Shown here piece by piece: positions 15,184 to 33,427 of a stretch of 64,000 bases of DNA (position 1 is its first letter; each line of letters opens with the position of its first letter). Source of the stretch: Taibaiella koreensis (lineage in GTDB: Bacteria; Bacteroidota; Bacteroidia; Chitinophagales; Chitinophagaceae); assembly GCF_003545715.1 (NCBI RefSeq), contig NZ_QVNU01000001.1, positions 186,001-250,000 on the forward strand, in the 5' to 3' direction. The position numbers and the translations under genes are program-made. The notes under the pieces were generated by a model. The model ran no database searches. It saw nothing but the letters and a program-made list of their open reading frames with translations, and was not told where the DNA came from.

Positions 15184-15199
15184 TTAAACGTTTGTTTAA
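15184..15199. promoter_or_regulatory. Palindromic site A, TTAAAC-N4-GTTTAA, inositol-lipid operon
   Basis: TTAAAC (15184-15189), GTTT, GTTTAA (15194-15199). Together with the four bases before it, TTAATTAAACGTTTGTTTAA, it is identical over 20 bases to site C in front of the inositol-phosphate synthase. The TTTG inside it (15191-15194) is 19 bases upstream of a -7 element TAATTTTG, so the palindrome would cover the -33 element. TetR-family fatty-acid regulators such as PsrA bind AAAC-N2-4-GTTT, which suggests the type of regulator (inference). Confidence 0.65.
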
Positions 15200-15213
15200 T
15201 TTCTGGAATTGGT

Positions 15214-15221
15214 TAATTTTG
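15214..15221 (+). promoter_or_regulatory. -7 element of the inositol-lipid operon
   Basis: TAATTTTG matches TAnnTTTG. The -33 candidate TTTG at 15191-15194 lies at 19 bases. The ATG at 15253 follows 31 bases later. Confidence 0.6.
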
Positions 15222-15252
15222 CATCTGAAAACAAGTGACAACTAACTGGTGT

Positions 15253-16575
15253 ATGAGTGATGTTTCTTTCAGGGAAAAAGCGCAAAAGGGAATTTATAAG
15301 GTTATCAATCCTTTTGTACGTTTTCTGATCCGGCTGGGGCTTACGCCCAATGCAGTAACGACTATAGGGTTGTTGCTGAATGTGGGTGTGGCGGTGATCT
15401 TTATCATCGGCGCCGAAAAAGGGAACCGTGGCGAGCTGGGTTACGTAGGCTGGGCCGGCGGCCTCATCCTGTTTGCCGGTCTTTTCGATATGCTGGACGG
15501 ACAAGTAGCACGGCTGGGCAAAATGTCTTCGACCTTTGGCGCCTTGTACGACTCGGTACTGGACCGCTACAGCGAGCTTATCCTTTTCCTTGGCATTTGC
15601 TACTACCTTATCTCCCACCACTATTTTCTCAGTTCGCTCTTTGCCTTCATCGCCATGATCGGCTCGATGATGGTAAGCTATACCCGGGCCCGCAGCGAAG
15701 GGCTGGGCATTGAAAATAAGGGCGGCTTGATGCAGCGGCCCGAGCGGGTGATCCTGATCGCCCTGTCGGCCATTACCACCGGCGTGGCAGGCGCCTTCGT
15801 AGAGGGCGACGGCAAAGTATTCATACCGGGTATCCGGTTTCATGTATTCGAGTTAATGAGCATTTTTACAATCCCTATAGCAATAATGGCTGTTTTAACC
15901 AATATCACTGCGTTCAAGCGACTTGTTGATGCCAAAAAGGCCCTGGATAAGATCGACGCAGAAAAAGCGAAAAAAATTTCCTCCGCTAACATGGCCGCTG
16001 TGCTGTTGTTAGGTGCTGCGCTGCTTGGCCTGCCCACTGCCACGCATGCCCGTATCGACGATGGCCGGGCGACCTTTACTGAGGCGGTAGATACTTTTCC
16101 CGTGCCCAAATTCACGGCCAAAACCCAGTTCTATGTGCAGCGTACGCCCAATACCAATACGATCATGTATGAGCTAAACCTGAAGAACGGCGAGCTAAAC
16201 GAAGATAATCCCATCCATGTATACTGGATAAGGTATGCAGACGGTGGCGGGACACAGGAATTATCATATATTCAGCGTAAATTTGCCTACGGTGTCAAAA
16301 CGTCGAAGATCGCTGATGAAAAATTCAAGTTGCTCTTCGCTGCATACGACAAGATTCCCTTTTACCTGATGAAGTCTTCCGCCGGCATCTATCATACTTA
16401 TGTAGAGCTCGACGGGAAAATGGTTGTACTGAGAAGATTGTATATCCGTATTGATCCCGGTGGCACTTTCTGGTCGCCTAATGTAAAATACGTGGAGTTC
16501 AAAGGGACTGAAGTGGCGAGCGGAAAAGAGGTGATCAAAAGAATAAACCCCAAATGGAAGCCCCCTAAGCAATAA
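15253..16575 (+). CDS. CDP-alcohol phosphatidyltransferase fused to a DUF4833 domain, likely PI-phosphate synthase
   Basis: 440 residues from ATG 15253 (a GTG at 15235 is an alternative). Residues 1-225 are a multi-helix CDP-alcohol phosphotransferase with the full metal-binding motif D-x2-D-G-x2-A-R-x8-G-x3-D-x3-D (about 79-104). A further hydrophobic segment (about 246-264) leads to a predicted periplasmic DUF4833 domain (FPVPKFTAKTQFYVQRTPNTN ... to the end). Beside a fatty acid hydroxylase and an Aur1-like enzyme, and sharing an operator with the inositol-phosphate synthase at 33512, it probably joins CDP-diacylglycerol to inositol phosphate. The fusion with DUF4833 is notable; that domain's function is unknown. 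A phosphatidylglycerophosphate or other alcohol substrate is not excluded. Confidence 0.82.
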   Translation: MSDVSFREKAQKGIYKVINPFVRFLIRLGLTPNAVTTIGLLLNVGVAVIFIIGAEKGNRGELGYVGWAGGLILFAGLFDMLDGQVARLGKMSSTFGALYDSVLDRYSELILFLGICYYLISHHYFLSSLFAFIAMIGSMMVSYTRARSEGLGIENKGGLMQRPERVILIALSAITTGVAGAFVEGDGKVFIPGIRFHVFELMSIFTIPIAIMAVLTNITAFKRLVDAKKALDKIDAEKAKKISSANMAAVLLLGAALLGLPTATHARIDDGRATFTEAVDTFPVPKFTAKTQFYVQRTPNTNTIMYELNLKNGELNEDNPIHVYWIRYADGGGTQELSYIQRKFAYGVKTSKIADEKFKLLFAAYDKIPFYLMKSSAGIYHTYVELDGKMVVLRRLYIRIDPGGTFWSPNVKYVEFKGTEVASGKEVIKRINPKWKPPKQ

Positions 16576-16611
16576 CGATTGCCCGGTTCCCGTCGAGAAA
16601 AAAACAAGACA

Positions 16612-17238
16612 ATGAAAAAGAATTACGTTTCCAACTCTCCCGAATCCATACGTATGTTCAAAAGCAATTTCCTGGAGACCTTCTCGAAGGTCCACTGGAC
16701 TGTGCCTATGATCCTGTATATCCCGGTAGTGCTGGTATTCGCTTACCTGGGTCTGTTTGTTGCGCATACGCCCGGGCTGGTATTCCTTGGCATGTTCGCA
16801 GTGGGGCTAATCTCCTGGACACTGTTTGAATATGTGCTGCATCGCTGGATATTCCACTATGTACCAAAGCCCAAATGGGCCCTCCGCCTGCATTTCATTT
16901 TCCATGGGGTACACCACGATTATCCCAATGATATGAAAAGGCTTGTTATGCCGCCATCGGTGAGCATTCCGCTGGCGTTCGGCGTCTATTTTGCTTTATA
17001 TGCCTTTTTGCCATCTGTATACCTCTATCCCTTCTTTTCTGCATTTGTGCTGGGCTATATCATCTACGATACCATGCACTATGCCCTTCATCATTTCAAT
17101 TTTAAAGGTGAGGTCTGGAAAAAGATCAAGAAGCACCATATGCTGCATCACTACTCCGATTCAAGCAAAGGCTTTGGCGTGAGTTCCGAACTGTGGGATA
17201 AGGTGCTCAGTTCCGGCTTCCCGAAGAAGAAAAGCTAA
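16612..17238 (+). CDS. Fatty acid hydroxylase (FA2H/sterol desaturase superfamily)
   Basis: 208 residues from ATG 16612, 36 bases after the previous stop. Four membrane helices are interrupted by the histidine clusters of a di-iron hydroxylase: HRWIFH (HxxxH), HGVHHDYPND, HYALHH and HHMLHH. The HGVHHDYPND-KRLVMPP block matches fatty acid 2-hydroxylases, which hydroxylate the N-acyl chain of ceramides. It is inside the inositol-lipid operon and overlaps the next gene by one base (TAATG). It probably produces 2-hydroxylated ceramide (inference); 3-hydroxy chains in Bacteroidota come from other routes. Confidence 0.85.
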   Translation: MKKNYVSNSPESIRMFKSNFLETFSKVHWTVPMILYIPVVLVFAYLGLFVAHTPGLVFLGMFAVGLISWTLFEYVLHRWIFHYVPKPKWALRLHFIFHGVHHDYPNDMKRLVMPPSVSIPLAFGVYFALYAFLPSVYLYPFFSAFVLGYIIYDTMHYALHHFNFKGEVWKKIKKHHMLHHYSDSSKGFGVSSELWDKVLSSGFPKKKS

Positions 17239-18194
17239 TGAGTTCGACTACAATAACCAATATTTCCCGCATCAATCCTATGCCCGTACACCGGCGGTTG
17301 CTGCTTGCGGGAGGTATCAGCGTCGCGTACCTGATCCTTTCCTGTTTCCTGATCGGTTTCCGGCCCGAGCAGATCTTTATTTCCGGCTTGTTCTTCGTGC
17401 TGTACACCGTTTCCAAGAAGACGCGCAACTTCCTGCTTACCCTGATGCCGTTCATCGTTTTTTGGGTGATCTTCGACTATATGAAGGCTTTCCCCAATTA
17501 CCGCTTCAATACGGTGCATGTGGGCGATCTGTACGCTTTGGAAAAAGAGTATTTCGGGTTCAATTACCGGGGGACCATACATACCATCAACGAATTTTGG
17601 GCATTAAACCGCAGCACCTTGCTCGATGTACTGAACGGTTTTTTCTATCTCTGCTGGATGCCGGTGCCTATCTCATTTGCCGGCTACCTGTTCTTTAAAG
17701 ACCGTAAAGCGGCCATCGAATTCTGTCTTACCTTCCTGCTGACCAATTTCGTAGGATTCATAGGCTATTACGGCTATCCTGCCGCGCCGCCATGGTATAT
17801 CCACGAGCACGGAATGGTATTCAACCCGGCTACCCCGGGCAATGTCGCCGGCCTGGCAGGTTTCGATCATTTCTTTGGTGTGCAGATCTTCCATGGGCTA
17901 TATGCCAAGAGCTCCAACGTATTTGCCGCCATGCCCTCGCTGCATGCGGCGTATGCATTGGTTTCCGTATATTATGCGTATAGGAAGAATGTGGCTACGG
18001 GCTGGAAAATATTCCTCACCATCGTTTGCCTGGGTACCTGGTTTGCGGCGCTATACACCGATCACCATTATCTGATCGATGTTCTGGTAGGCATTCTTTG
18101 CGCTACCATCGGAATCGCACTTTTCCGCAGTGTATTGCTGAAGAGCAAAGCTTTCAGCAGATTCATGAGGAGCTATTACCAGCAAGTGGCCTAG
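17238..18194 (+). CDS. PAP2/Aur1-like membrane enzyme, likely inositol phosphoceramide synthase
   Basis: 318 residues with about six membrane helices. The lipid phosphatase/phosphotransferase motifs are PPWY in YGYPAAPPWY, then AAMPSLHAAY with the catalytic histidine, then YTDHHYLIDVLVG (second histidine and aspartate). The order and spacing match the Aur1 branch, which moves phosphoinositol from phosphatidylinositol to ceramide and releases diacylglycerol. The start codon overlaps the hydroxylase stop (TAATG). The final bases overlap by three the end of a convergent diacylglycerol kinase gene. A plain PAP2 lipid phosphatase remains possible, but the operon strongly favours IPC synthase. Confidence 0.82.
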   Translation: MSSTTITNISRINPMPVHRRLLLAGGISVAYLILSCFLIGFRPEQIFISGLFFVLYTVSKKTRNFLLTLMPFIVFWVIFDYMKAFPNYRFNTVHVGDLYALEKEYFGFNYRGTIHTINEFWALNRSTLLDVLNGFFYLCWMPVPISFAGYLFFKDRKAAIEFCLTFLLTNFVGFIGYYGYPAAPPWYIHEHGMVFNPATPGNVAGLAGFDHFFGVQIFHGLYAKSSNVFAAMPSLHAAYALVSVYYAYRKNVATGWKIFLTIVCLGTWFAALYTDHHYLIDVLVGILCATIGIALFRSVLLKSKAFSRFMRSYYQQVA

Positions 18195-18559
18195 TGTAGG
18201 GGAAAGAAGAAGACGATGATGCCGGTAAGCAAGGCAAACAGCGCTGCGATGAGTACTGCCGCCGCACCAATGTCCTTTACTTCTTTGATCAGGGGATGGC
18301 GTTCCGTGCTCACCTTATTACAAAGCCGTTCCAGTGCAGTATTGAGCGCCTCCGTGATCCATACCAATGCGATCGCCAACAGCAGCAGCCACCAGCGCAT
18401 ATAGGTAAGCCCTTTTAGCCAGCCCAGTAAGAGTATCACCACTGTCGCCAGCAAATGCAGCTGTATATTCCTTTCTGAACGGACCAGGGTAGACAAGCCC
18501 TGGAAGGCATAATGGAAGCTGTGAAGGAGCTTATAAACCGATCTCATGCGTTCTGTCAA
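18191..18559 (-). CDS. dgkA: Diacylglycerol kinase family protein
   Basis: 122 residues, three membrane helices, and the DgkA signature EALNTALERLCNKV plus KDIGAAAVLIAA. It phosphorylates diacylglycerol or undecaprenol at the inner membrane. Its stop overlaps the stop of the Aur1-like gene by three bases in a tail-to-tail arrangement. Since IPC synthesis releases diacylglycerol, a kinase returning it to phosphatidate next door makes sense, but the Gram-positive-type DgkA is usually an undecaprenol kinase, so this link is inference. Confidence 0.88.
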   Translation of the reverse strand: MTERMRSVYKLLHSFHYAFQGLSTLVRSERNIQLHLLATVVILLLGWLKGLTYMRWWLLLLAIALVWITEALNTALERLCNKVSTERHPLIKEVKDIGAAAVLIAALFALLTGIIVFFFPLH

Positions 18560-18588
18560 TAGTACCTCCTGTTAACAGCCCTGTACGT

Positions 18589-20037
18589 TTAAAGTTGTTT
18601 TGCCAGACCGGTTGAACAGGCTGCCGCCGAGGTGTCCTGTTGCTGCGTCGCTACCGGATGTTCCTGTCGGCCGGTTCCTTTCTTTACTTTGGCCAGGACT
18701 GATTCCAGAACGGGCAGCATATTGTTCAGGTTGCGGGTCTTGATCAGGAAATTCCATACCGCTTCAAATTTTTTCCAGCCGCCGGCATAAAAGAAGTGTT
18801 TCAGCTTGTGCTTGTGTGTATCGTGCTGCAGGCTGGCTTTAACGATATTGCTCCAGCTGTAAAAGGATCTGTAAGCCCAGTCATATCCCTTTTTTAATGT
18901 TGCCGCATCAATCCTGGCGGTTTGGTACACGACATTCCGCGTATCATATTGATCCCAGTCGTACGTCAGTATGCGTCCCTGTTGCTCCATGTCTTTGTAC
19001 AGGCGTGTGCCCGGGTAGGGTGTCAGGATATGATAAGTGGCCGTAGTGATCGCATTGTTGACGCCCCAGTCCACCGTTCTTTTAAATACATCGCTGTCGT
19101 CATCGTCCAGGCCAAACACAAAGCTCCCGTTGATCATAATACCCAGCGAATGGAGCCTGTTCACGGCTTCCCGGTAATCCTTGGCAAGATTCTGCTTCTT
19201 ATTGCTTTGTTTCAGGTTGGTGGGTGAAAACGTCTCGAAACCCACGAACAGGCTTCGAAGCCCGGCTGCGGCTGCTTTCTCGATCAGGTCGCCCCGCAAT
19301 ATGGAATCGACCGTACCTGCAGCCTGGAATACCCGGTTCATGCCTTTCATGCCTTCAAAAAGCGCTGAGGCAAAGCGGGTATTGCCCAACAGGTGGTCGT
19401 CAAGAAAATAGAGGTGTCTGCCTTCAAGACGGTCAATCTCGGACAGAGCATCGTCTACAGCCTGGGTATAAAAGCTTTTACCCCCTTCAAAAAAAGCGTC
19501 CTTATAGCAGAAGTTGCAATGATGGGGGCATCCCCTGGTGACCACAATAGAATTCGGCACGAGGTAACGGTTCCTTTTGATGAGGTCGCGTCGTAACGGG
19601 GGTATATGCTCCAGTGTTCTTATCGCAGAGCTGTAGCGCTTCTGCGGTATTTTATTCCTGAAATCCTTCAAAAAGCGCGGAAAGGTTTCCTCTCCCGGTC
19701 CCAGGAAAATGGTATCCGCATGTTCTGCAGCCTCATCGGGCAACGAGGTCACGTGCAGGCCACCCAGGATCACATAAGCGCCCCGGCTCCTGTAATGATC
19801 GGCAATGCGGTAAGCCCGGTAAGCATTGGTAATATATACCTGGATCACCACAAGGTCCGGCTCATCTTCCAGGTACAACGTTTCCACATGCTGGTCCTGC
19901 AGGTCTACTTCATCATCGGGCGACAGGTAGGCGGCAAGCGTGGCCAGACCCAATGGAGGAAACAGGGAATACTTAATGGGCCGCCAGAAAGGGCTTTCCG
20001 CTTCGGTAAGCGCGGGCAATATCATTTTGACTTTCAT
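18589..20037 (-). CDS. B12-binding-domain radical SAM protein
   Basis: 482 residues. The N-terminal half (1-150) is a cobalamin-binding-like Rossmann domain (LATLAAYLSPDDEV, VILGGLHVTSLPDEA, GPGEETFP). The radical SAM barrel follows with the cluster motif C-x3-C-x2-C in RGCPHHCNFCYKD (about 175-187). Such enzymes methylate or rearrange unactivated carbons, for example in hopanoid, antibiotic or lipid modification. The C-terminal 100 residues resemble family members acting on membrane lipids, but the substrate is unknown. It is the last gene of an operon with a sugar-phosphate transferase (one base apart) and a Coq4-like gene. Confidence 0.83.
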   Translation of the reverse strand: MKVKMILPALTEAESPFWRPIKYSLFPPLGLATLAAYLSPDDEVDLQDQHVETLYLEDEPDLVVIQVYITNAYRAYRIADHYRSRGAYVILGGLHVTSLPDEAAEHADTIFLGPGEETFPRFLKDFRNKIPQKRYSSAIRTLEHIPPLRRDLIKRNRYLVPNSIVVTRGCPHHCNFCYKDAFFEGGKSFYTQAVDDALSEIDRLEGRHLYFLDDHLLGNTRFASALFEGMKGMNRVFQAAGTVDSILRGDLIEKAAAAGLRSLFVGFETFSPTNLKQSNKKQNLAKDYREAVNRLHSLGIMINGSFVFGLDDDDSDVFKRTVDWGVNNAITTATYHILTPYPGTRLYKDMEQQGRILTYDWDQYDTRNVVYQTARIDAATLKKGYDWAYRSFYSWSNIVKASLQHDTHKHKLKHFFYAGGWKKFEAVWNFLIKTRNLNNMLPVLESVLAKVKKGTGRQEHPVATQQQDTSAAACSTGLAKQL

Positions 20038-20038
20038 G

Positions 20039-20587
20039 TTACTTCAGGTTGTTTTTTTGGAAAAGGATGCGGCGCACCCTGGTCTTCCCGAATACATTCA
20101 TCAAGAAGGATACGACAACCACGCCGGCATCGGCGACGACGTTATGGTTCCTGATATAGTACCGGTCCCAGAACCAGGATGTTTTGCGGTGCTGGCCGCC
20201 ATACAGCTGGGCGTAGCCGGTAATACCCGGCTTCACCTGCCATCGGAGGGCATGATAGGTATCGTGCCACCGGAGTCGTTCAATATCTTCCGGGGTTAAA
20301 GCCCTGGGGCCAACGATGCTCATATCGCCTTTGAGCACATTAATAAATTGCGGCAACTCGTCCAGGCCGGTCTTGCGCAGTAGCCTGCCCGTTGCCGTAG
20401 GGACCTGCCGGGTCATCGTGCGGAACTTGAATATGCGGAAGGTTTTCTTGTTTCTGCCGGTCCTTTGCTGCAGGAAGAAAACAGCATGACGTTCTTTCAA
20501 CAGCAGTATAGCCGCAATGATAATAGCGGGTAGGAAAAAAACAGCCAGTGCGATCAGGGAAAACAATATATCAAACAGTCTTTTCAT
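20039..20587 (-). CDS. Undecaprenyl-phosphate sugar-1-phosphate transferase family
   Basis: 182 residues: one N-terminal membrane helix, then the bacterial sugar transferase motifs KFRTM, LRKTGLDELPQFINVLKGDMSIVGPRAL and VKPGITGYAQLYG. This matches the catalytic core of WcaJ/WbaP-type enzymes, which load the first sugar phosphate onto undecaprenyl phosphate. No glycosyltransferase, Wzx, Wzy or Wza genes are nearby, so this is not an ordinary polysaccharide locus. It overlaps the Coq4-like gene by 4 bases (ATGA) and lies one base before the radical SAM gene, so the three are co-translated. Confidence 0.88.
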   Translation of the reverse strand: MKRLFDILFSLIALAVFFLPAIIIAAILLLKERHAVFFLQQRTGRNKKTFRIFKFRTMTRQVPTATGRLLRKTGLDELPQFINVLKGDMSIVGPRALTPEDIERLRWHDTYHALRWQVKPGITGYAQLYGGQHRKTSWFWDRYYIRNHNVVADAGVVVVSFLMNVFGKTRVRRILFQKNNLK

Positions 20588-21075
20588 AAATCCTGGGCTT
20601 TTGCGCTGAAGAGTTCATGGCGTACTTCCTGTAGTTGTTGCGGTACCAGGTCAAACCAATTGAGCCGGTTCAATGAAGGCGTTTGTCTTCCCCTGTTCCA
20701 GGCCTGCCGGAAGCTGCGCCACTTATCGGGCATGATGAGCAGGCCTACCGCCACGCTGAACAGTACCGGCGCCGTAATACGGCCATTGGCCAGCATAAAG
20801 CATTGCAGACTTACTTCGCCTTCTTCTGTTGGCGGATAGCCCAGCACTACATGCTTGATATCGTGCTTCTCATAATGGGGCAGCAGATGGATGTCGTTAT
20901 CGTTGAAAAAGCGATACAATGCCCTGCCCACGGTGCCATCGGGCAAGTGCTGTAATTGCTTCAGCGAATAAGGGAAATGATAGCCCTTCCGGACCAGTTT
21001 GAAATAGGGGAGAGCAACCTCATGCGCGAGATATACCAATAGCCGTTTACGGATGTGGTTAAGCTGTATTTTCAT
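20584..21075 (-). CDS. Coq4-like protein
   Basis: 163 residues from ATG 21075; a longer frame to 21441 is rejected because it runs antisense-like through another gene. The Coq4 metal motif H-D-x2-H-x11-E is complete (HDIKHVVLGYPPTEEGE, about 77-93). LPDGTVGRALYRFF precedes it and LMPDKW follows. Yeast Coq4 works in ubiquinone synthesis, where it was reported to act in C1 oxidative decarboxylation. Bacteroidota use menaquinone, so a different substrate is likely here. Its operon partners (sugar-phosphate transferase and B12-radical SAM) point to a modified lipid or glycolipid. Confidence 0.78.
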   Translation of the reverse strand: MKIQLNHIRKRLLVYLAHEVALPYFKLVRKGYHFPYSLKQLQHLPDGTVGRALYRFFNDNDIHLLPHYEKHDIKHVVLGYPPTEEGEVSLQCFMLANGRITAPVLFSVAVGLLIMPDKWRSFRQAWNRGRQTPSLNRLNWFDLVPQQLQEVRHELFSAKAQDL

Positions 21076-21125
21076 AAGAAGTATGTTTTTAGAAGTATGA
21101 AGAAGGTGTTCTGATTCCGGGCGGC

Positions 21126-21452
21126 CTACAGCTGTAAGCCGCTCATGCAGTATCCCGCAACCAGGTAGTACAGGATGGCAATGGTGCCGGCGATGCCCAG
21201 AAAAATGGCCAGTATGGTGGCACCGGCCATAACCAGGGACCATGTGCCGGGCAAGTATTGTCGTAACCAGCGTCCGGCGCCTTGCAACAGCAGTACGAGC
21301 AGGAAGCAACAGATGGCACCGGCAATCCCGGCCGGTACTACCAGCATACCGGCCAGCCCGGTATCCCGCCCCATAAGAATAAGGCTGCCGATCATAAACA
21401 GGAGGAAGCAGGCGGCCGCGATTGCAATTCCTGCTGTACATCTTGCTTTCAT
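21126..21452 (-). CDS. Small membrane protein, paralogue of the gene at 21502
   Basis: 108 residues with three to four membrane helices. It aligns along its whole length with the next gene upstream: FLLF, G-A-G-L-V-AGI-G--CFLL, LR---PG-W--..AG-T-LAIFLG, and LVAG. The pair arose by tandem duplication. No known domain is recognised. It is 50 bases before the Coq4-like gene in the same direction and could be part of that operon. Function unknown. Confidence 0.6.
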   Translation of the reverse strand: MKARCTAGIAIAAACFLLFMIGSLILMGRDTGLAGMLVVPAGIAGAICCFLLVLLLQGAGRWLRQYLPGTWSLVMAGATILAIFLGIAGTIAILYYLVAGYCMSGLQL

Positions 21453-21501
21453 GGTGTAAACATGTTTTGCGGATTATAGGGAGAAATAAGTCATGCCAGG
21501 A

Positions 21502-21828
21502 TCAAAACCGGAGGTTTTCCATTGCGCTCCCTGCAAGCAGCACAATCAGTGTCGCAATGAAGGCCAGAAAACCCAGGAATATAGCCAGGTAGGTGATTCC
21601 CGCCGACAAAACGGCCCAATCCCCTGGACGGTTCTTCCGTAGCCGGCTCACGGTCCTTTGCAGCCATCGTGCAATCAGGAAGCAGATCATACCACCGGGT
21701 ATGCCTGCTACCAGCACCAGTATACCCGTGGCGCCGGCGCCCTGATGCAATAAGTTGATGCCGGCCAAGGCAAACAGGAGATAGCAGGTAACGCTGATAG
21801 CAGTGACAGGTACCCATTTTGTATTCAT
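21502..21828 (-). CDS. Small membrane protein, paralogue of the gene at 21126
   Basis: 108 residues, three to four membrane helices, same length and layout as its neighbour 49 bases downstream. A basic loop (LQRTVSRLRKNRPGDW) separates the helix pairs. Lies downstream of the HTH/membrane pair on the same strand, with 88 bases between. Function unknown. Confidence 0.6.
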   Translation of the reverse strand: MNTKWVPVTAISVTCYLLFALAGINLLHQGAGATGILVLVAGIPGGMICFLIARWLQRTVSRLRKNRPGDWAVLSAGITYLAIFLGFLAFIATLIVLLAGSAMENLRF

Positions 21829-21916
21829 GTAAAAGTGCTTTGTTTTTCAAAGTGAAAAGAGAAAAATAAAACTGCACAATCACCGGGAATCTTAAATACC
21901 GGGCTGGTGCAGTAGG

Positions 21917-22216
21917 CTAATTGATGGTTTTAATGATCTTTTCGAGCGCATCGAGGTGCTGGCGGAATGCTTTTTCGCCGGCGCGGGTAATCGAATACAC
22001 GGTATTGGTCTTGCGACCGATAAATCCTTTTTCCACCTTGATATACTTATGCTCTTCAAGGGTCTTCAGGTGCGTGGCCAGGTTGCCGTCTGTAGCATCG
22101 ACCAGCGCCTTAAGGTCGTTGAAGTTGATGTCTTCATTCACCATCAGGGCGCTCATGATGCCGATACGGAGCCGGCTGTCGAATACCTTGTTGAGCTGTT
22201 CGAGTTCTTTCCTCAT
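21917..22216 (-). CDS. Winged-helix transcriptional regulator
   Basis: 99 residues forming one winged helix: RLRIGIMSALMVNEDINFNDLKALVDATDGNLATHLKTLEEHKY... then a wing (VEKGFIGRKTNTVYSITRAG). It resembles the single-domain HTH_34/MarR-like repressors of Bacteroidota. The ATG directly follows the TAA of the upstream membrane-protein gene (no gap), so the two are translated together. Such pairs are thought to control their own operon and membrane neighbours. Effector unknown. Confidence 0.82.
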   Translation of the reverse strand: MRKELEQLNKVFDSRLRIGIMSALMVNEDINFNDLKALVDATDGNLATHLKTLEEHKYIKVEKGFIGRKTNTVYSITRAGEKAFRQHLDALEKIIKTIN

Positions 22217-22867: not shown

Positions 22868-23080
22868 AAAAGCACTTTGAAAGACAAAGTAAATTGATAT
22901 TTTTGAAAAGAACAACTATCGGGCCAAAATATTTTTGGTATTTCCCTGCAGCGGCCTCGCATGTTATGCCGCTACAATGAAATGTTTTGGGTCCTGATCG
23001 AAAGATGCTATGTTGCTACCGAAGGCTCTGCCCGAATGAAATGGTATGAACCGGTTTATTGCTTTGCGGGAAAAAAGTGC

Positions 23081-25195: not shown

Positions 25196-25301
25196 GCAAT
25201 CTGTTCGCGCAAAAATAAGAACTATCTCCTGGTTTGGCGGCGCTGCTTTGTACTAAAAGCACAGCCGGCAAAAGACCGTGGGAAAAGCGGGCAAAAAGAA
25301 A

Positions 25302-25321: not shown

Positions 25322-25479
25322 CCCTCATTTGAACCAATTTGCATAATCGAACCACATATTGGAACGATTATTTTCCCAAAGGTTTAATGCCGTTTGTGAA
25401 AATGAAATATTTATTTGCCTTTAATTTTTATAGCTTTTATTGCGACTTATTTGCGGCCTTGTTTTTTTGAGACAACAGC

Positions 25480-26448
25480 CTAGATTAAGCCTTCGCGTAC
25501 CAGGTCGTGCAGGTGTACCATACCGGCGTAGCTGCCATCGTGCGTTACGATCAGTTGGGTTATATCATGCTGTCGCATCAGCTCCAGTGCTTGTACCGCC
25601 AGTTCGCTGTCCTCGATGCTTTTGGGATTCCGCGTACAAATATCCTTAGCGGTAAGCTGTGAAGTATCGGTATTGTTTTCGAGCATACGGCGGAGATCGC
25701 CATCGGTGATCACCCCGATGAGCTGCTCATCTTCCATAACCGCTGTGGCGCCGAGGAACTTGCCCGATATCTCGATAATGACTTCCCTGAGCGACGCGTC
25801 TGCAGTTACTTTGGGCTGCGCGTTGCGGCTGCTCAGGTCCTGCACAGTAAGGTAAAGCCGTTTGCCCAGCGCGCCGCCGGGATGAAAACGGGCAAAATCG
25901 CGGTCGCTGAAGCCTTTCAGCTGCAGCAGGCTTACCGCCAGGGCATCGCCCATCACCAGCTGCGCTGTAGTGCTGGTGGTTGGTGCCAGGTTGTTGGGGC
26001 AGGCTTCCGCATCGATGGTTGTATTGATAAAATAGTCGGCATGTGTGGCCAGGTAGCTATCCTTATTGCCACAGATGGCGATCACTTTATTGCCAAAGTT
26101 TTTTACAAAAGGCAGGAGGGCCTTGATCTCGGGGCTTTCACCGCTTTTGGAGATCACGATCACCACGTCGTCGGGCTGTATCATACCCAGGTCGCCATGG
26201 ATGGCATCGGCTGCATGCATGAACAGAGCCGGCGTTCCGGTCGAGTTCATAGTGGCAACGATCTTTTGCGCGATAATGGCGCTTTTGCCGATGCCGGTGA
26301 TCACCACGCGTCCCTTGGCTTCATGCATCAGCGTTACGGCCTGTACAAAATCACCGTCGATAAAATCGTTCATGCGCTGCAGGGCAGCGATCTCGCTTTG
26401 TATGGTTTGAACGGCATACGCGCGTATCTTCTCCGGATTGGGTAACAT
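25480..26448 (-). CDS. kdsD: Arabinose-5-phosphate isomerase (KdsD/KpsF/GutQ family)
   Basis: 322 residues. The SIS domain (about 30-190) contains VVITGIGKSAIIAQK, SGESPEIKALLPF and APTTSTTAQLVMGDALAV; two CBS domains follow (about 205-320). The enzyme makes arabinose-5-phosphate from ribulose-5-phosphate for Kdo synthesis in lipopolysaccharide. A minus-strand -7 element TACCTTTG (26454-26461) ends only 5 bases before the ATG, so the mRNA is probably leaderless. Divergent from the DUF4287 gene. Confidence 0.93.
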   Translation of the reverse strand: MLPNPEKIRAYAVQTIQSEIAALQRMNDFIDGDFVQAVTLMHEAKGRVVITGIGKSAIIAQKIVATMNSTGTPALFMHAADAIHGDLGMIQPDDVVIVISKSGESPEIKALLPFVKNFGNKVIAICGNKDSYLATHADYFINTTIDAEACPNNLAPTTSTTAQLVMGDALAVSLLQLKGFSDRDFARFHPGGALGKRLYLTVQDLSSRNAQPKVTADASLREVIIEISGKFLGATAVMEDEQLIGVITDGDLRRMLENNTDTSQLTAKDICTRNPKSIEDSELAVQALELMRQHDITQLIVTHDGSYAGMVHLHDLVREGLI

Positions 26449-26453
26449 GGGCG

Positions 26454-26461
26454 CAAAGGTA
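26454..26461 (-). promoter_or_regulatory. -7 element of kdsD, leaderless arrangement
   Basis: TACCTTTG on the minus strand, exact match to TAnnTTTG, five bases from the ATG at 26448-26446. With transcription starting a few bases after the -7 element, the transcript would begin at or next to the start codon. Confidence 0.55.
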
Positions 26462-26609
26462 TCAAGTTTTTACACGTGTTTATCCATTTTCCGGTCTCTC
26501 TATATTGACGTATCAGCCCCTTTATTTGTCGCCATAAGCCGCGGTAATGCTCACCGGAGGCCGGTATTTTTGTACAGCAATCCATTCATCCTTAAAAATA
26601 TTACAGATC

Positions 26610-26840
26610 ATGTCTTTTCAAGCTTATCTCGACAACATACAGGCCAAGACGGGCAAGAGCCCTTCCAATTTTAAGCAGCTGGCCGAGCAAAAGGGCTTCC
26701 TGAAGGCCGGCAAGCTGGCCGCCAGTATCAAAGCAGGGGAGATCGTGCAATGGCTTAAAGAGGATTATGCGCTGGGCCATGGGCATGCTATGGCCTTGTT
26801 TGCCTTATTTAAGGGTATTAAAAAAGAAGGCGATCAATAA
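26610..26840 (+). CDS. DUF4287 domain protein
   Basis: 76 residues from ATG 26610. SFQAYLDNIQAKTGKSP at the start and VQWLKEDYALGHGHAMALF near the end are the DUF4287 signature. A -7 element TATTTTTG (26565-26572) lies 37 bases upstream. DUF4287 is a small cytoplasmic helical domain, sometimes fused to DUF5655; its function is unknown. The central KAGKLAASIKAGE segment looks a few residues longer than usual. Confidence 0.85.
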   Translation: MSFQAYLDNIQAKTGKSPSNFKQLAEQKGFLKAGKLAASIKAGEIVQWLKEDYALGHGHAMALFALFKGIKKEGDQ

Positions 26841-26846
26841 TTCTTA

Positions 26847-26988
26847 CTGACTATTCCCGATGTAGGAAACAAAATAATCTCCGATCCTTGAGCACATCGA
26901 GGGGATAGCTATAAATGGGCGCTTCGATGGGTCCCGCAACCGTTATCAAGACGAATTTGACCAATGTTTCCTATATCAGCGTAGTCAG
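26847..26988. repeat. MITE-like element or long hairpin with imperfect terminal inverted repeats
   Basis: CTGACTATTCCCGATGTAGGAAAC (26847-26870 region, 24 bases) faces GTTTCCTATATCAGCGTAGTCAG (26966-26988) as an imperfect inverted repeat: the outer CTGACTA and the inner TAGGAAAC are perfect. About 95 non-coding bases lie between. It resembles a small miniature element or structured RNA. No clear target duplication is visible. The rest of 26841-27226 holds the typA promoter and nothing else I recognise. Confidence 0.4.
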
Positions 26989-27123
26989 CTTATGTAAAAC
27001 GAACTATGGCGAGATAAAATATGCATATTATGCGTTTTTGTCCGGATCGCGATGACGGTTAGCTGATTGTGTTTTTGCAGATGCCACAATAGTATAATTC
27101 GTAATGCTCTCAACTATTTTCCT

Positions 27124-27131
27124 TACCTTTG
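27124..27131 (+). promoter_or_regulatory. -7 element of typA
   Basis: TACCTTTG, exact TAnnTTTG. It predicts a leader of about 90 bases before the typA ATG at 27227. Confidence 0.5.
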
Positions 27132-27226
27132 CGCACTTTTTAGATACAATACAAGAGGAAAAAAGTAAAGACATCTTAACACCCGGCACAGCCGGGAATG
27201 TCTCTTCTCTGTTTTATTTTGCACAT

Positions 27227-29029
27227 ATGAACATTCGCAACATTGCCATCATCGCCCACGTTGACCACGGCAAAACAACATTGGTAGACAAGATCATTCA
27301 TGCCACACAGGTATTCCGCGACAACCAGGAAACCGGTGAGCTGATCATGGACAGCAATGACCTGGAACGTGAGCGGGGCATCACCATTCTGAGCAAAAAT
27401 ATTTCGGTAACTTATAAAGGAGTAAAGATCAATGTGATCGATACTCCAGGCCACGCCGACTTCGGTGGCGAAGTGGAACGCGTGCTTAAAATGGCGGATG
27501 GTGTGCTGCTGCTGGTCGACGCCTTTGAAGGCCCCATGCCGCAAACCCGTTTCGTATTGCAAAAAGCGCTGGGCCTGGGCCTGCGCCCCATCGTGGTGAT
27601 CAACAAGGTGGATAAGCCCAACTGCCGCCCCGATGAAGTGCACGATAAAGTATTTGACCTGTTCTTCCAGCTCGATGCTACCGAAGAGCAGCTCGATTTT
27701 CCCACCCTGTACGGCTCGGCCAAGCAAGGCTGGTACAATACCTCCCTCACGCCCACCGACAATATTAATGCCGTACTGGACGCTGTGCTGGAAAAAGTAC
27801 CCGAGCCGGTAGTAACAGAGGGCAACCTGCAAATGCAGATCACTTCCCTCGATTACTCTTCGTTCCTGGGCCGTATCGCAGTAGGCCGTGTAGCCCGCGG
27901 TACCATCAAAGAAGGTCAAAATATACAACTGTGCAAGCTGGACGGCAGCATGGTGCGTAATAAAGTAAAGGAGCTCTATACTTTCGAAGGTATGGGCAAG
28001 AAAAAAGTATCTGAAGTAGCTGCCGGCGATATTTGCGCTGTGGTGGGTATCGAAGATTTCCAGATCGGTGAGACTATTGCCGATTTCGAAAACCCCGAGC
28101 CATTGGCCGTTATCCATATTGACGAGCCCACGATGAACATGCAGTTCAGCATCAACAACTCACCTTTCTTCGGCCGTGAAGGTAAATTCGTTACCAGCCG
28201 TAACCTGCGCGACCGTTTGACCAAGGAGCTGGAAAAAAACCTGGCCCTTCGTGTAAAGGATACCGACGATGCAGATAAATTCCTGGTCTACGGCCGTGGC
28301 ATCCTTCACCTTTCCGTATTGGTGGAAACTATGCGTCGCGAAGGTTATGAGCTGACTGTCGGACAACCGCAGGTAATTACCAAAGAGATTGACGGACAGA
28401 AATGCGAGCCGTTTGAAACCCTTGTGGTAGATGTACCGGAAGAATTTGCCAGCAAAGTGATCAACCTGGTAACGATACGTAAAGGCGAAATGCTGATCAT
28501 GGAGTCTAAGGGCGAAATGCAGCACCTCGAATTCGATATGCCTTCCCGCGGTCTGATCGGCCTGCGTTCGCAAATGCTGACCGCTACAGCGGGTGAAGCG
28601 GTAATGGCGCATAATTTTGCATCCTATAAGCCCTGGAAAGGCGCTATTCCCGGTCGTAACAACGGTGTGCTGATCGCCAAACAAGGCGGTTCCAGTACCG
28701 GGTATTCCCTGGATAAGCTGCAGGATCGTGGCTCTTTCTTCATCGATCCGGGTGAAGAAGTATACGCCGGCCAGATTGTTGCCGAGCATATCAAGCCAGG
28801 CGACCTGGTGGTAAACGTGGTGGAAGGCAAAAAACTGACCAATATGCGTGCGAGCGGAACAGATGGTGCCGCCAATATTGCACCAAAAATTCAGATGAGC
28901 CTGGAAGAATGTATGGAATACATCCAACAGGACGAATGCATTGAGGTAACACCGCAGAGCATCCGTCTACGTAAAATCTTACTGGACGAGATCGAACGCA
29001 ACAAGTATGCCAAGACAATGAAAGCTTAA
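27227..29029 (+). CDS. typA: Translational GTPase TypA/BipA
   Basis: 600 residues from ATG 27227 (a frame extension to 27104 includes the promoter and is rejected). The G domain has [26 protein letters not shown] and NKVD; then a beta-barrel domain, EF-G-like domains III and V, and the BipA-specific C-terminal domain ([20 protein letters not shown]...). A ribosome-bound GTPase that helps 50S assembly under cold or other stress. Single gene with its own promoter. Confidence 0.97.
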
Positions 29030-29100
29030 TCGCTTGACGATTAGCTTGTTTTGGACAGTAGCTATCCGTTCTGGTCCTCGAAAAAAAGAAACAAAACAGT

Positions 29101-29131
29101 GCAAAAGCTACCGGAGTCTGGTGGCTTTTGC
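29101..29131. terminator. Hairpin between typA and arfB
   Basis: GCAAAAGCTACC (29101-29112) and GGTGGCTTTTGC (29120-29131): 12 bp with one G-T pair. Plausible terminator for typA or a leader hairpin of arfB; it ends 18 bases before the arfB ATG. Confidence 0.5.
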
Positions 29132-29149
29132 CTATTAATAGAGAGGGTC

Positions 29150-29542
29150 ATGATCGATTTTTCGAAGGAAATAGCTTTCCGTACGGCCCGCAGCGGCGGG
29201 AAAGGCGGCCAGAACGTGAACAAGGTGGAGACCATGGCGGAGGCGCTTTGGGAGATCGGCAGCACTGCTTTCTTTACACCGGAGCAGCAAATGATGATCC
29301 GCGAAAAGCTGGCTGCCAGGATCAACGGTGAAGATTGGCTTATGGTAAGATCGAGCGAGGCGCGTACCCAGCTCGCCAATAAAAGAAGGGCTGTGGAAAA
29401 AATGTTGCTCCTGGTCAACCAGAGTATACAGAAGCCTAAAAAGCGGCTGGCCTCAAAGCCCTCTAAAGCGGTGCTTGAAAAGCGGTTGGAAATGAAGAAG
29501 CGATTGGCAGAGAAGAAATTATATAGAAGAAAAGATTGGTAA
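29150..29542 (+). CDS. arfB: Alternative ribosome-rescue factor, peptidyl-tRNA hydrolase ArfB
   Basis: 130 residues from ATG 29150. It carries the release-factor GGQ motif (RSGGKGGQNVNKVET; GGQ at 19-21) and a basic C-terminal tail (PKKRLASKPSKAVLEKR...KKLYRRKDW) that enters the empty mRNA channel. It frees stalled ribosomes on mRNAs without stop codons. The length is typical of ArfB (YaeJ) and too short for a class I release factor. Confidence 0.93.
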   Translation: MIDFSKEIAFRTARSGGKGGQNVNKVETMAEALWEIGSTAFFTPEQQMMIREKLAARINGEDWLMVRSSEARTQLANKRRAVEKMLLLVNQSIQKPKKRLASKPSKAVLEKRLEMKKRLAEKKLYRRKDW

Positions 29543-29648
29543 TTTTTACATGGAAAGGACGGAAGCATAGGAAAGAAATGGAATTCAAAAGCATTAAATT
29601 TTCTTCATTAACTTCCGTTTAGTAAATTCTTAATGCGCTTTTTTGCCT

Positions 29649-29664
29649 TTAAACAAGTGTTTAA
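29649..29664. promoter_or_regulatory. Palindromic site B, TTAAAC-N4-GTTTAA, spt promoter
   Basis: TTAAAC (29649-29654), AAGT, GTTTAA (29659-29664). It lies between a -33 TTTG (29642-29645) and a -7 TATTTTTG (29667-29674), spaced 21 bases, so a bound protein would block RNA polymerase. Same architecture as sites A and C but with a different 4-base centre. Confidence 0.62.
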
Positions 29665-29666
29665 TT

Positions 29667-29674
29667 TATTTTTG
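29667..29674 (+). promoter_or_regulatory. -7 element of spt
   Basis: TATTTTTG (TAnnTTTG). It predicts a leader of about 140 bases before the spt start. Confidence 0.55.
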
Positions 29675-29693
29675 TACTTAATTTTTTAATTAG

Positions 29694-29761
29694 TTTTGGG
29701 AAACCGGCACCTAATGTATTGGTGTAGAAAATGGAAAAAACGCCGGCCCTACTTCCCAAAA
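29694..29761 (+). other. Structured 5' leader of spt
   Basis: Nested inverted repeats: TTTTGGGAA (29694-29702) with TTCCCAAAA (29753-29761), CCGGC (29704-29708) with GCCGG (29742-29746), and a small inner hairpin ACCTAAT/ATTGGT (29709-29723). They form a three-tier stem that closes about 55 bases before the spt ATG. It has no U-run, so control of translation or stability rather than termination would be expected. I recognise no known riboswitch class. Confidence 0.45.
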
Positions 29762-29794
29762 CAAAAAGGGAACACTAAATTAAATTTATATTAA

Positions 29795-31024
<1,230 letters not shown>

Positions 31025-31055
31025 TTTGCTGCTTTGCAGATGATGATAATTAAGA

Positions 31056-31097
31056 ACAGAACGCTGAAATGATCCATGACGGCGTTCTGTTTTTTTA
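31056..31097 (+). terminator. Terminator between spt and the bCerS-like gene
   Basis: ACAGAACGC (31056-31064) and GCGTTCTGT (31082-31090), 9-bp stem with a 17-base loop and eight T. The spt transcript should mostly end here, separating its dose from the downstream ceramide genes. Confidence 0.8.
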
Positions 31098-31165
31098 GGA
31101 CCGTCCCGGTCTGCAACCATACCAATTAACCAACCATTGATTAACGCGCTTACCATACGCACCCT

Positions 31166-32296
31166 ATGATCAAAGTAGCTGCCATCCCATCCAAAGGAAA
31201 GGACCTAAGGGTCTTTATTGATTTTCCCCACGATCTGCACCGGGACGATCCGTACTACGTGCCGGAGCTTTTTATGGCCCAGCGCGACCTGCTGAATCCT
31301 GCCAAGCACCCCTTCTTTGAGCATGGACGCATGCAGCTGTTCCTGGCCTACAAAGATGGCAAGCTGTCGGGACGCGTAGCAGCTATTTTTAACGGTAACC
31401 ACAACACCTTCAATAAAAGCAACGACGGTTTTTTCGGCTTCTTCGATTGCGTCGACGATCAGGAGGTGGCCAATGCCTTGCTGCAGGCGGCTGAAGGCTG
31501 GCTGCGCGACCAGGGGCTCTCTACGATGATAGGACCGGTCAACCCCTCTACCAACGAGGCTTGTGGCCTGCTGGTAGACGGTTTCGACAGCGCGCCCATG
31601 ATCCTGATGCCGTATAACCCGCCCTACTATAAAAAATTGCTGGAGCAATACGGGCTCGCCAAGCAGGTGGATCTGGTGGCCTATGCCCTGTACGATACCG
31701 ACCTGGGCGACAAGCCGGTGCGCCTGCAGGAAGCCTTGACGGCACGTTTGGCAACTAAAGGCATTACCATTCGTCCTTTCGACCTCAAGCATAACTTTAA
31801 GCGGGAGCTGGAGCAGTTTGGCAAAGTCTATAATGCTGCCTGGGACAAGAATATGGGCTTTGTACCGATGACCAAGGCGGAATTCGACTTTATGGGAAAA
31901 GACATGAAGCTGATTGCCGATACCGACTTTTGCCTGGCTGCCGAGCACAATGGCGAAGTGGTGGGTATAGCGCTTTGCCTGCCCGATATTAACCAGGTGC
32001 TGAAGAAGATCAAAAGAGGCCGCCTGTTTCCCACTGGTGTATTCCACTTCCTCTTGGGCCGTAAAAAGATCAATGCGCTGCGTATCCTGGCCTTGGGCGT
32101 ACTGGAACCCTATCGTAAAATGGGGATCGAGGCCTGCTTCTATGCGACCATTATGAAGAAGGGTAGGGAAAAAGGATTCAACATGGCCGAAGCCTCCTGG
32201 ATGCTGGAGCATAACGATCTTATGAATAGGGCGATAGAGCATATGCATGGCGTGCGGTATAAAACCTACCGGATTTTTGATAAGCAATTGTCTTAA
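31166..32296 (+). CDS. GNAT-like acyltransferase, probable bacterial ceramide synthase (bCerS)
   Basis: 376 residues, cytoplasmic. It resembles the large GNAT-fold family next to spt in sphingolipid bacteria: DPYYVPELFMAQRDLLNPAKHPFFEHG at the start, GPVNPSTNEACGLLVDGF in the middle, and a GNAT-like second half (LALGVLEPYRKMGIEACFYA, MAEASWMLEHN). The Caulobacter member of this family was shown to N-acylate the sphingoid base. Here it would acylate 3-ketosphinganine or sphinganine. The position between spt and a CerR-like gene supports this. I recognise no promoter consensus before it. Confidence 0.75.
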   Translation: MIKVAAIPSKGKDLRVFIDFPHDLHRDDPYYVPELFMAQRDLLNPAKHPFFEHGRMQLFLAYKDGKLSGRVAAIFNGNHNTFNKSNDGFFGFFDCVDDQEVANALLQAAEGWLRDQGLSTMIGPVNPSTNEACGLLVDGFDSAPMILMPYNPPYYKKLLEQYGLAKQVDLVAYALYDTDLGDKPVRLQEALTARLATKGITIRPFDLKHNFKRELEQFGKVYNAAWDKNMGFVPMTKAEFDFMGKDMKLIADTDFCLAAEHNGEVVGIALCLPDINQVLKKIKRGRLFPTGVFHFLLGRKKINALRILALGVLEPYRKMGIEACFYATIMKKGREKGFNMAEASWMLEHNDLMNRAIEHMHGVRYKTYRIFDKQLS

Positions 32297-32352
32297 TGGC
32301 CGTTCCCGGCAGGGCGCTTGTGCCGTAAGAAGAGAAACCAAACAGAAAACGA

Positions 32353-33354
32353 TTGGCAAAACAGGGCAAAATCTTCCTGACCGGAGCCTCCGGCTTCATT
32401 GGCTATCACCTGGTCGCCCAAGCAGTGGCCAGGGGCTTTGAAGTGGTGGCCGCTATACGCAGGAGCAGCCAGGTAAGCCACCTGGAAGGCTTCCCGGTGC
32501 GCTACATTTATCCCGATTTCAACGATATTGCCGCTTTGCGGCAAGAGCTGGTGGCGGGGCAATACGACTATATCATTCATCTGGCAGGCGCCATACGCGC
32601 CAGGGATCAGGAAGCGTTTAACCGTATCAATGCCGAACTGACCCGCAACCTGGCGCTTGCGGCGCTGCAGTCGGGCATTCCTTTGAAAAAATTTGTTTTC
32701 CTCAGCAGCCTGGCCGTCGTTGGCCCTGTAGCGTATGATAGCCCGGTACCCATTACGGAAGAGAAGCTATCGGAACCCATTACGGCTTACGGCCGCAGCA
32801 AGTTGCTGGCCGAGCAATACCTGTCGGAAATAAAAGAGTTGCCCCTGGTGACCCTGAGGCCTACTGTCGTGTACGGACCCCGCGAAAAGGATTTTTTTGT
32901 GATGCTACGCAGCCTGTCGAAGGGCTGGGAGCCTTATATAGGACGGCGCTGCCAATGGCTGAGCTTTGTTTATGTGACCGACCTGGTGAACCTTTGCCTT
33001 GATGTACTGTCGCAAGAAACGGAGCCTGGTATCACCTGCAATATCAGCGACGGAAACGTATATGCCAGGGAAGAAGTCGCGCAGATCATTAAAAAAATAC
33101 TGGATCGCAAGACCTTCCGGTTCTATGTGCCTGTAGGGGTAGTGAGAGCCCTGGCTGTCCTTATAGAGCGGTTGTACCGCAACAGCGCCCGGTTGCCCCT
33201 GCTGTATCCGGAGCGGGTAGGCGAGATCACGGCGCCGAACTGGAATGTGAGCATTGAAAAAGCGCGGGCCCACCTGGGTTATATACCCCGGTACTTCCTT
33301 GAGGAGGGATTGACGCAAAGCCTGGCCTGGTATCGTGAGCAGAAATGGTTGTGA
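32353..33354 (+). CDS. NAD(P)-dependent epimerase/dehydratase family, probable ceramide reductase (CerR)
   Basis: 333 residues starting at TTG 32353; the frame is open only back to 32329 and has no ATG, so TTG is the best start. Extended SDR fold: nucleotide motif TGASGFIG (10-17) and catalytic Y146-x3-K150. The family includes CerR of Caulobacter, which reduces the 3-keto group during ceramide synthesis, and the gene sits in the same spt neighbourhood. A sugar-nucleotide epimerase is the alternative, but no sugar genes are near. It begins 56 bases after the bCerS-like gene. Confidence 0.75.
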   Translation: MAKQGKIFLTGASGFIGYHLVAQAVARGFEVVAAIRRSSQVSHLEGFPVRYIYPDFNDIAALRQELVAGQYDYIIHLAGAIRARDQEAFNRINAELTRNLALAALQSGIPLKKFVFLSSLAVVGPVAYDSPVPITEEKLSEPITAYGRSKLLAEQYLSEIKELPLVTLRPTVVYGPREKDFFVMLRSLSKGWEPYIGRRCQWLSFVYVTDLVNLCLDVLSQETEPGITCNISDGNVYAREEVAQIIKKILDRKTFRFYVPVGVVRALAVLIERLYRNSARLPLLYPERVGEITAPNWNVSIEKARAHLGYIPRYFLEEGLTQSLAWYREQKWL

Positions 33355-33411
33355 GCCAATGAAATCGTTGAGACTGGCAACGAACGAAAATGAACCAATT
33401 GAAAAAATTAA

Positions 33412-33427
33412 TTAAACGTTTGTTTAA
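33412..33427. promoter_or_regulatory. Palindromic site C, TTAAAC-N4-GTTTAA, inositol-phosphate synthase operon
   Basis: TTAAAC (33412-33417), GTTT, GTTTAA (33422-33427), preceded by TTAA so that 20 bases are identical to site A. Its internal TTTG (33419-33422) lies 21 bases upstream of the -7 element TATCTTTG (33444-33451); the palindrome therefore covers the -33 element, as at site A. Confidence 0.65.

Follow-up and report, generated by a model that had tools for sequence, protein, structure and literature searches.

What does a 16-bp palindrome do in front of three separate groups of membrane-lipid genes? The question is raised by a 64-kb stretch of the genome of Taibaiella koreensis (the window; G000:C10:186001-250000 of a 5.94-Mb genome in 24 contigs), in which TTAAAC-N4-GTTTAA precedes a phosphatidylinositol-phosphate (PIP) synthase operon, the serine palmitoyltransferase gene spt, and the operon of the myo-inositol-phosphate synthase gene ino1. 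A sequence-only reading of the window had taken the palindrome as the mark of a sphingolipid/inositol-lipid regulon. The three lipid operons do share the operator. It is also found, however, at two efflux operons, and across the family (Chitinophagaceae) it is at the TetR-EmrAB operon that it recurs. Our analysis suggests that a predicted repressor encoded beside a drug-efflux pump appears to control, in Taibaiella, all three inositol-sphingolipid gene groups as well.

The palindrome in the window and in the genome

An exact scan of the window for TTAAACNNNNGTTTAA returned the three copies previously found by eye (15184-15199, 29649-29664 and 33412-33427) and no other. The dinucleotide-shuffled window contained none in 100 shuffles, and the sole further match with up to two mismatches allowed was at position 3324 (two mismatches). 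The first and third copies lie, as had also been noted, within a common 20-mer, TTAATTAAACGTTTGTTTAA (15180-15199 and 33408-33427), which covers the -33 element. The motif might have occurred at many unrelated places in the genome. Only three further exact copies exist, for a total of six, compared to one for the reversed pattern that was the control in the whole-genome statistics. All six are located 51 to 170 bp upstream of some gene, and three of six scattered sites would fall within a given 64-kb stretch with a probability of 2.4e-5. The copies outside the window are found 72 bp before a TetR gene, 107 bp before an operon of TolC, RND adaptor and RND permease genes, and 100 bp before a gene for a flavin adenine dinucleotide (FAD)-binding dehydrogenase. 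The PIP-synthase, ino1 and TetR promoters all contain the 20-mer and the RND promoter has it in reverse, which makes four of the six exact sites. The anticipated enrichment at fatty-acid genes was not seen, as none of the six sites stands at a gene recognised as fab or fad. The FAD dehydrogenase was rejected as a core member of the regulon; its site is present in only two of the three Taibaiella that have the gene.

These counts bear on a rival explanation, according to which the palindromes are a by-product of promoter shape. A/T-rich Bacteroidota promoters with TTTG elements would converge on GTTTAA palindromes with no common regulator. The -33 TTTG indeed overlaps two of the sites, and at up to one mismatch the genome has 13 sites compared to 31 for the reversed control, such that near-misses are not enriched. 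The excess of exact copies and their absence from the shuffled windows argue against convergence, as does the RND promoter, in which the site is reversed in orientation and no TTTG is found 17-23 bp from the -7 element. The site is moreover kept while its flanks diverge and it tracks the presence of the TetR (both below), and we regard the by-product explanation as highly improbable. Beyond the exact copies, the one-mismatch sites are rarer than those of the control (7 vs 30) and, therefore, only the exact palindrome is informative. One of these seven is a second operator of the TetR gene and another lies in the promoter of a TetR paralogue (L318).

Conservation within Taibaiella

Four Taibaiella genomes were compared, including G001, G002 (T. 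lutea) and G003 (T. helva). All four have exact sites at PIP synthase, ino1 and the RND operon. The spt site is exact in three and has one mismatch in T. lutea, and the TetR promoter has two operators in every species, each with one mismatch in T. lutea. When the five promoters (three lipid, TetR, RND) were aligned on the site, 11 or 12 of the 12 core bases proved invariant in each, compared to 3 to 33 of 82 in the flanks (per-promoter Fisher p between 4e-4 and 1e-12). The -33 TTTG and -7 TAnnTTTG elements are as had been described, with the second site of the window located between them, yet a suitably spaced -33 TTTG precedes spt in only two of the four species. The PIP-synthase and TetR promoters have the same geometry in all four, the operator centre being 22 bp from the -7 element and the -33/-7 spacing being 19.

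The TetR and its efflux operon

The three exact copies outside the window offer a candidate for the regulator. The sequence-only reading had proposed to look for a TetR gene whose promoter also carries the site; such a gene exists (215 aa; G000:C10:998294-998941, L007:8294-8941), 0.75 Mb from the window, and its site is doubled. The second operator, TCAAACGTTTGTTTAA, begins 17 bp beyond the first, and this tandem is in keeping with the TetR-family trait of a palindromic operator in the regulator's own promoter. The gene heads an operon that continues with TolC-, EmrA- and EmrB-like genes. The permease matches the DHA2 family TIGR00711 (433.6, cut-off 230.2), as expected of an EmrAB-TolC operon, and TIGR00998 (adaptor) and TIGR01844 (channel) are the best families for the other two products, both under their own cut-offs.

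We aligned 24 TetRs picked for carrying the operator (L049 and L181, which also have it, were left out). The N-terminal TetR_N helix-turn-helix (PF00440) is present in all 24, and N40, A42, M43, Y46, Y47, F48, G49, K51, E52 and L54 of the recognition region are invariant. Two diverged relatives have an altered segment (NISMIAYYFGSKDK and NSAQVFYYFITKEN) and no site within one mismatch. The T. koreensis genome has seven other TetR-like matches (E 0.01), with at most 32% identity over the matched stretches. The lipid sites could be read by a different TetR, such as the paralogue L318 (G000:C10 near 1,058 kb), or by both proteins. The recognition segment of L318, NLALLNYYFRSKEKL, resembles NVAMISYYFGSKEKL, and its promoter has a one-mismatch site. 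This promoter is, however, better explained by a longer palindrome of its own, CATTTGATT...AATCAAATG (by eye; L318 and L357), and L318 is only 27% identical over the matched part. Both the 20-mer and the matching promoter geometry link the lipid sites to the EmrAB-linked TetR, and we consider a role for the paralogue quite improbable.

Co-occurrence of TetR and operator across the family

A search anchored on EmrB in 27 genomes (all with ino1, plus G001 and G123, the latter included since its sites were already known) gave 45 EmrB matches. The 20 with at least 62% identity comprise 17 counted loci and those of G001, G003 and G020, all three with sites; loci picked by motif were not used as counts. 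The operator (at most one mismatch) is present in 10 of 10 loci that have a TetR at least 33% identical and in none of the seven that do not (n=17, p 5e-5), the 33% line having been set after the data were seen. Exclusion of G123 gives 9/9 vs 0/7 (p 9e-5). The loci of G046, G145 and G105 were kept out of the main count because they were chosen after their sites had been seen; with them (n=20) the figures are 13/13 vs 0/7 (p 1.3e-5). In these loci the TetR gene heads the EmrB operon, or in one case (G076) stands beside it. Most TetR promoters have the sites in tandem, at a distance of 17, 18 or 21 bp (at most two mismatches), and 2 of 26 TetR loci have a single one. Because the site tracks both the presence of the TetR and the conservation of its recognition segment, it is best read as the operator of the EmrAB-linked TetR, whose old target would be EmrAB efflux. 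A second target seen beyond the genus is the RND operon, in G009, G052 and, at greater distance, G008 (loci chosen by motif). At L170 and L173, where the EmrAB TetR is missing or diverged, another TetR (recognition segment TGTLYIYF or TGTVYTYF) is close by.

Reach of the lipid link

Outside the genus, we scored the site at up to one mismatch within 400 bp upstream of the lipid genes in a draw of 147 genomes of the family. The gene for ino1 is present in 26 genomes, with the operator before 3/3 Taibaiella orthologues and 1/23 others; that for PIP synthase is present in 27, with 3/3 and 0/24, respectively. The 34 spt matches come from 33 genomes; the three Taibaiella orthologues have the site, a second T. 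helva copy lacks it, and outside the genus it is present at 0/30. G001, the fourth Taibaiella, is outside the draw and has all three lipid sites. The expected conservation upstream of orthologues was thus borne out in all four Taibaiella and failed beyond them, and a family-wide spt or PIP-synthase regulon is ruled out by 0/30 and 0/24. We also inspected 80 named spt loci, mostly from Mucilaginibacter. The closest named records to the window spt are those of T. helva (99%) and T. lutea (93%). Seven of the 78 loci with enough upstream sequence have the site within two mismatches, namely two Taibaiella (0 and 1 mismatch), Nubsella (L289) and four with two mismatches, and we find it convincing in the two Taibaiella only. 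The Nubsella zeaxanthinifaciens locus has two one-mismatch sites within 350 bp upstream of spt.

Other genera, G043 and G074 for example, have the same kind of TetR, its operator and the lipid genes, and the lipid sites are missing. The lipid link is therefore young, and the predicted lipid regulon is a genus-level innovation of Taibaiella on top of the efflux regulon. In G020, from another genus, exactly two exact sites exist in the genome, one at ino1 and one at the TetR gene. The two promoters share the proximal operator TTAAACAATTGTTTAA followed by TTTTGC, within the common stretch TTTAAACAATTGTTTAATTTTGC, and each has a second, imperfect copy upstream; the operator centre differs from that of Taibaiella. 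The ino1 tree places G020 apart from Taibaiella, such that the operator label needs two changes, forced by well-supported branches. The simplest reading of these sequences is that ino1 was captured separately by the local TetR in G020 and in Taibaiella; many losses, or transfer, may be alternatives. G123, of the genus of G020, has no spt match at 1e-100, and an exact site is found there between divergent LolA-like and YfiO/BamD-like genes (L187 at 5001). Two species of one genus (G096 and G155) have an exact site that precedes a gene of 166 aa by 57 bp (L197/L198 at 5001); the G096 gene is an ECF sigma factor by Pfam, and that of G155 has the same size and position.

Weight of the evidence for a common regulator

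The positions of the sites, their conservation, the co-occurrence with the TetR, the promoter geometry and the pathway content support a shared TetR well, and we consider it very likely that one TetR-family repressor, common to the efflux and lipid operons, has TTAAAC-N4-GTTTAA as its operator. Several results weigh against this. To the unenriched near-misses, the resemblance of L318, the identity line drawn post hoc, the seven EmrB loci that have neither TetR nor site, the 0/24 and 0/30 outside the genus and the missing lipid sites of G043 and G074 must be added the following. At least one exact motif is present in 110 of the 147 genomes, and in many of these the reversed control is equally frequent. 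Other genera, as well as G001 and G003, have several exact sites at unrelated genes (LolA, Mqo, ECF sigma factor, others), and chance must account for some of them. The weakest site is that of spt, with its mismatch in T. lutea and a centre that is not conserved, and a second spt copy of T. helva (L365, G003:C31:119586-120764; 69% identical to the window spt) has no operator. Binding, repression, ligand and physiological purpose are all inferred, and equally so the sign of the effect (repression or activation). The lipid link to the TetR is real as sequence, but young, and it sits on an efflux regulon.

Gene content of the lipid operons

The features of the window are collected in Table 1. The PIP synthase belongs to the BT_1523-type family NF052561 (391.6 bits, cut-off 350) and spt to the Bacteroidota serine palmitoyltransferase family NF047600 (730.7 bits, cut-off 640). 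The only family matched by the PAP2 protein at 1e-10 is NF052609, at 333 bits and under its cut-off of 480; its identity as phosphoinositol dihydroceramide synthase is therefore probable only. We take 7nwr, the best solved relative of the ino1 product, to be the crystal structure of the BT_1526 enzyme. Such a structure is reported in PMC9246714, in which, in the part consulted, BT_1525 is assigned to the PgpA family. The genes downstream of spt are probably those of ceramide synthase and ceramide reductase, judging from gene order and fold after the Caulobacter pathway (consulted part of PMC11087976). The three operons probably encode, jointly, a near-complete inositol-phosphoceramide pathway; by this gene content, the operators would stand before the genes that make ceramide, inositol phosphate and phosphatidylinositol and, probably, those for the transfer of the last to ceramide.

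The fusion of PIP synthase to DUF4833 is not family-wide, as 13 of 27 PIP-synthase matches align only to about residue 240-273. In several other genera (G043, G132, G121, others) ino1 is followed on its strand, at a distance of a few kb, by the PIP synthase gene. In Taibaiella the two are about 18 to 44 kb apart, yet have the same operator.

Table 1. Operators, predicted promoters and lipid genes of the window
Feature	Position	Strand	Basis or remark
Operator 1	15184..15199		TTAAACGTTTGTTTAA; overlaps -33 TTTG, inside shared 20-mer; 12/12 core bases invariant in four Taibaiella, flanks 16/82
Predicted PIP-synthase promoter	15191..15221	+	TTTG 15191-15194, TAATTTTG 15214-15221, spacing 19; geometry as TetR promoter
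PIP synthase (CDP-alcohol phosphatidyltransferase) fused to DUF4833	15235..16575	+	NF052561 PIPSynBT1523, Pfam
Fatty-acid hydroxylase family protein, probably PIP-synthase operon	16579..17238	+	Pfam PF04116
PAP2 family protein, probable phosphoinositol-dihydroceramide synthase	17238..18194	+	NF052609, Pfam PAP2_3
Predicted spt promoter	29642..29674	+	TTTG 29642-29645, TATTTTTG 29667-29674, spacing 21
Operator 2	29649..29664		TTAAACAAGTGTTTAA; between -33 and -7; 11/12 core bases invariant in four Taibaiella, flanks 12/82
Serine palmitoyltransferase (spt)	29819..31024	+	NF047600
GNAT-like acyltransferase, probable bacterial ceramide synthase (bCerS)	31166..32296	+	Pfam PF00583; role from gene order
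NAD-dependent epimerase/reductase, probable ceramide reductase (CerR)	32353..33354	+	Pfam; role from gene order and fold
Operator 3	33412..33427		TTAAACGTTTGTTTAA; overlaps -33 TTTG, inside shared 20-mer; 12/12 core bases invariant in four Taibaiella, flanks 33/82
Predicted ino1 promoter	33419..33451	+	TTTG 33419-33422, TATCTTTG 33444-33451, spacing 21
myo-Inositol-phosphate synthase (ino1/MIPS)	33512..34837	+	Pfam; best solved relative 7nwr, E 1.6e-173
PgpA-family phosphatase, probable phosphatidylinositol-phosphate phosphatase	34843..35322	+	Pfam PF04608
GtrA-like membrane protein, probably ino1 operon	35249..35740	+	Pfam PF04138
DUF5686/carboxypeptidase-regulatory-like protein, probably ino1 operon	35688..38279	+	Pfam PF18939

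Proposed mechanism

We propose that a dimer of the TetR would occupy the core promoter, from the -33 TTTG to the -7 TAnnTTTG, and obstruct RNA polymerase. The two operators 17 bp apart would give tight autorepression at tetR. In Taibaiella the protein would additionally repress the TolC-RND pump and the three inositol-phosphoceramide operons, namely spt-bcerS-cerR, ino1-pgpA-gtrA-DUF5686, and PIP synthase-fatty-acid hydroxylase-PAP2 synthase. The ligand would be an amphiphile; a fatty acyl group of long chain length, perhaps iso-branched, or else a membrane-active compound is the most likely candidate. Among the fatty acids of Bacteroidota, iso-C15:0 is a usual one. Ligand binding would release all targets jointly, such that the amphiphile is exported and the envelope rebuilt with sphingolipids. 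The PsrA-like DNA binding and the FadR-like relatives described below make the sensing of an acyl chain or amphiphile a proposition that we hold to be evenly balanced.

The TetR may instead act on the lipid operons as an activator or weak modulator, with the main control (growth phase, nutrient) elsewhere. The operator is single at the lipid promoters of Taibaiella and double at tetR, and PsrA, which has a similar site, represses its own gene yet supports the expression of rpoS (consulted part of PMC13104628). In the five operons examined (three lipid, TetR, RND), however, the site is on or between the -33 and -7 elements, which is the usual place for a repressor, and we judge this alternative unlikely, if a serious one. 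We give little credence to a further variant, in which the TetR would respond to a precursor of sphingolipids (a long-chain base or an iso-branched acyl chain) and the EmrAB-TolC and RND-TolC pumps would help to move sphingolipids or inositol lipids toward the outer membrane. If it were true, one switch would build and export a sphingolipid class, and ino1 would have been wired into it twice in evolution. According to the consulted part of PMC11087976, no transporter of bacterial sphingolipids has yet been identified, and the co-regulated pumps are of interest for this reason.

Significance

The sphingolipids and inositol lipids of Bacteroidota are important to the envelope and, in relatives from the gut, to the host as well. 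Among the openly licensed PMC papers listed, judged by title and abstract, we found none on a transcription factor for their synthesis, and the high interest of the present case stems from our having found no described switch for the pathway. In the same openly licensed collection, the papers listed for TetR with EmrAB and TolC in Bacteroidetes were general ones on efflux, resistance and the microbiome, and in the sphingolipid papers whose text was scanned the word TetR belonged to unrelated words and an inducible-expression cassette only. What emerges is a regulator candidate with its 16-bp operator and three operons as targets, together with a connection of efflux to membrane building that is open to test. 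The sequences further hint at the way in which lipid biosynthesis can come under an efflux repressor, an event that apparently occurred more than once.

Comparison with known systems

The nearest solved DNA-binding domain to the TetR is 2fbq of P. aeruginosa, which covers residues 11-77 only and which we take to be PsrA (PA3006). The core AAAC-N4-GTTT of our operator matches that of the PsrA site; the outer base is mostly T/A, and TCAAAC and GTTTGA variants occur. PsrA sites are given as C/GAAAC-N2-4-GTTTG/C, with TTCAAAC-N4-GTTTGAA at rpoS, and oleate releases PsrA from fadBA5 (consulted part of PMC13104628). The Taibaiella TetR would share the half-site arrangement AAAC-N4-GTTT and autoregulation with PsrA and with Smlt2053 of Stenotrophomonas, both of them TetR-family regulators that respond to long-chain fatty acids. 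Smlt2053 has two inverted repeats in its promoter, as has tetR here, and is released by iso-C15:0 (consulted part of PMC10304680). The known targets of these regulators differ from the efflux and sphingolipid genes found here, being beta-oxidation genes, rpoS, lasR and the regulator's own gene, as far as the consulted texts go. The similarity is limited to about 70 N-terminal residues and the ligand domain is not PsrA-like. With a match confined to residues 11-77, full-length relatedness was not found and the TetR was not assigned to PsrA.

Longer matches were to RefZ, HlyIIR, FadR and KstR2; FadR and KstR2 have ligands of the acyl-CoA type. FadR of Bacillus (3whb, 5gp9) resembles the TetR along some 165 residues, a stretch that takes in most of the ligand domain. 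The TetR scores 68.3 bits with NF053878 (cut-off 200) and was not assigned to FadR, whose site and targets are unlike those of the Taibaiella TetR. RefZ (YttP) of Bacillus is the best NCBIfam match and 6mj1 the best PDB profile match; membership was rejected here as well (NF037937, 81.9 bits, cut-off 180). RefZ positions the septum in sporulation (consulted part of PMC6657595), unlike the role proposed for the Taibaiella TetR.

The BT_1522-BT_1526 genes of B. thetaiotaomicron, like the Taibaiella operons, encode homologues of MIPS, PIP synthase, a PgpA-type phosphatase and PI-dihydroceramide synthase (PI, phosphatidylinositol), and no transcriptional regulator of them is named in the consulted part of PMC9246714. 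They form one cluster in that account, whereas in Taibaiella two operons, preceded by the same operator, divide the inositol-lipid genes between them. In gene arrangement there is a likeness to the local efflux repressors of the TetR/AcrR type, in the TetR-TolC-EmrA-EmrB operon and the tandem sites before tetR. Unlike in those systems, the operator in Taibaiella also stands before distant operons of membrane-lipid biosynthesis.

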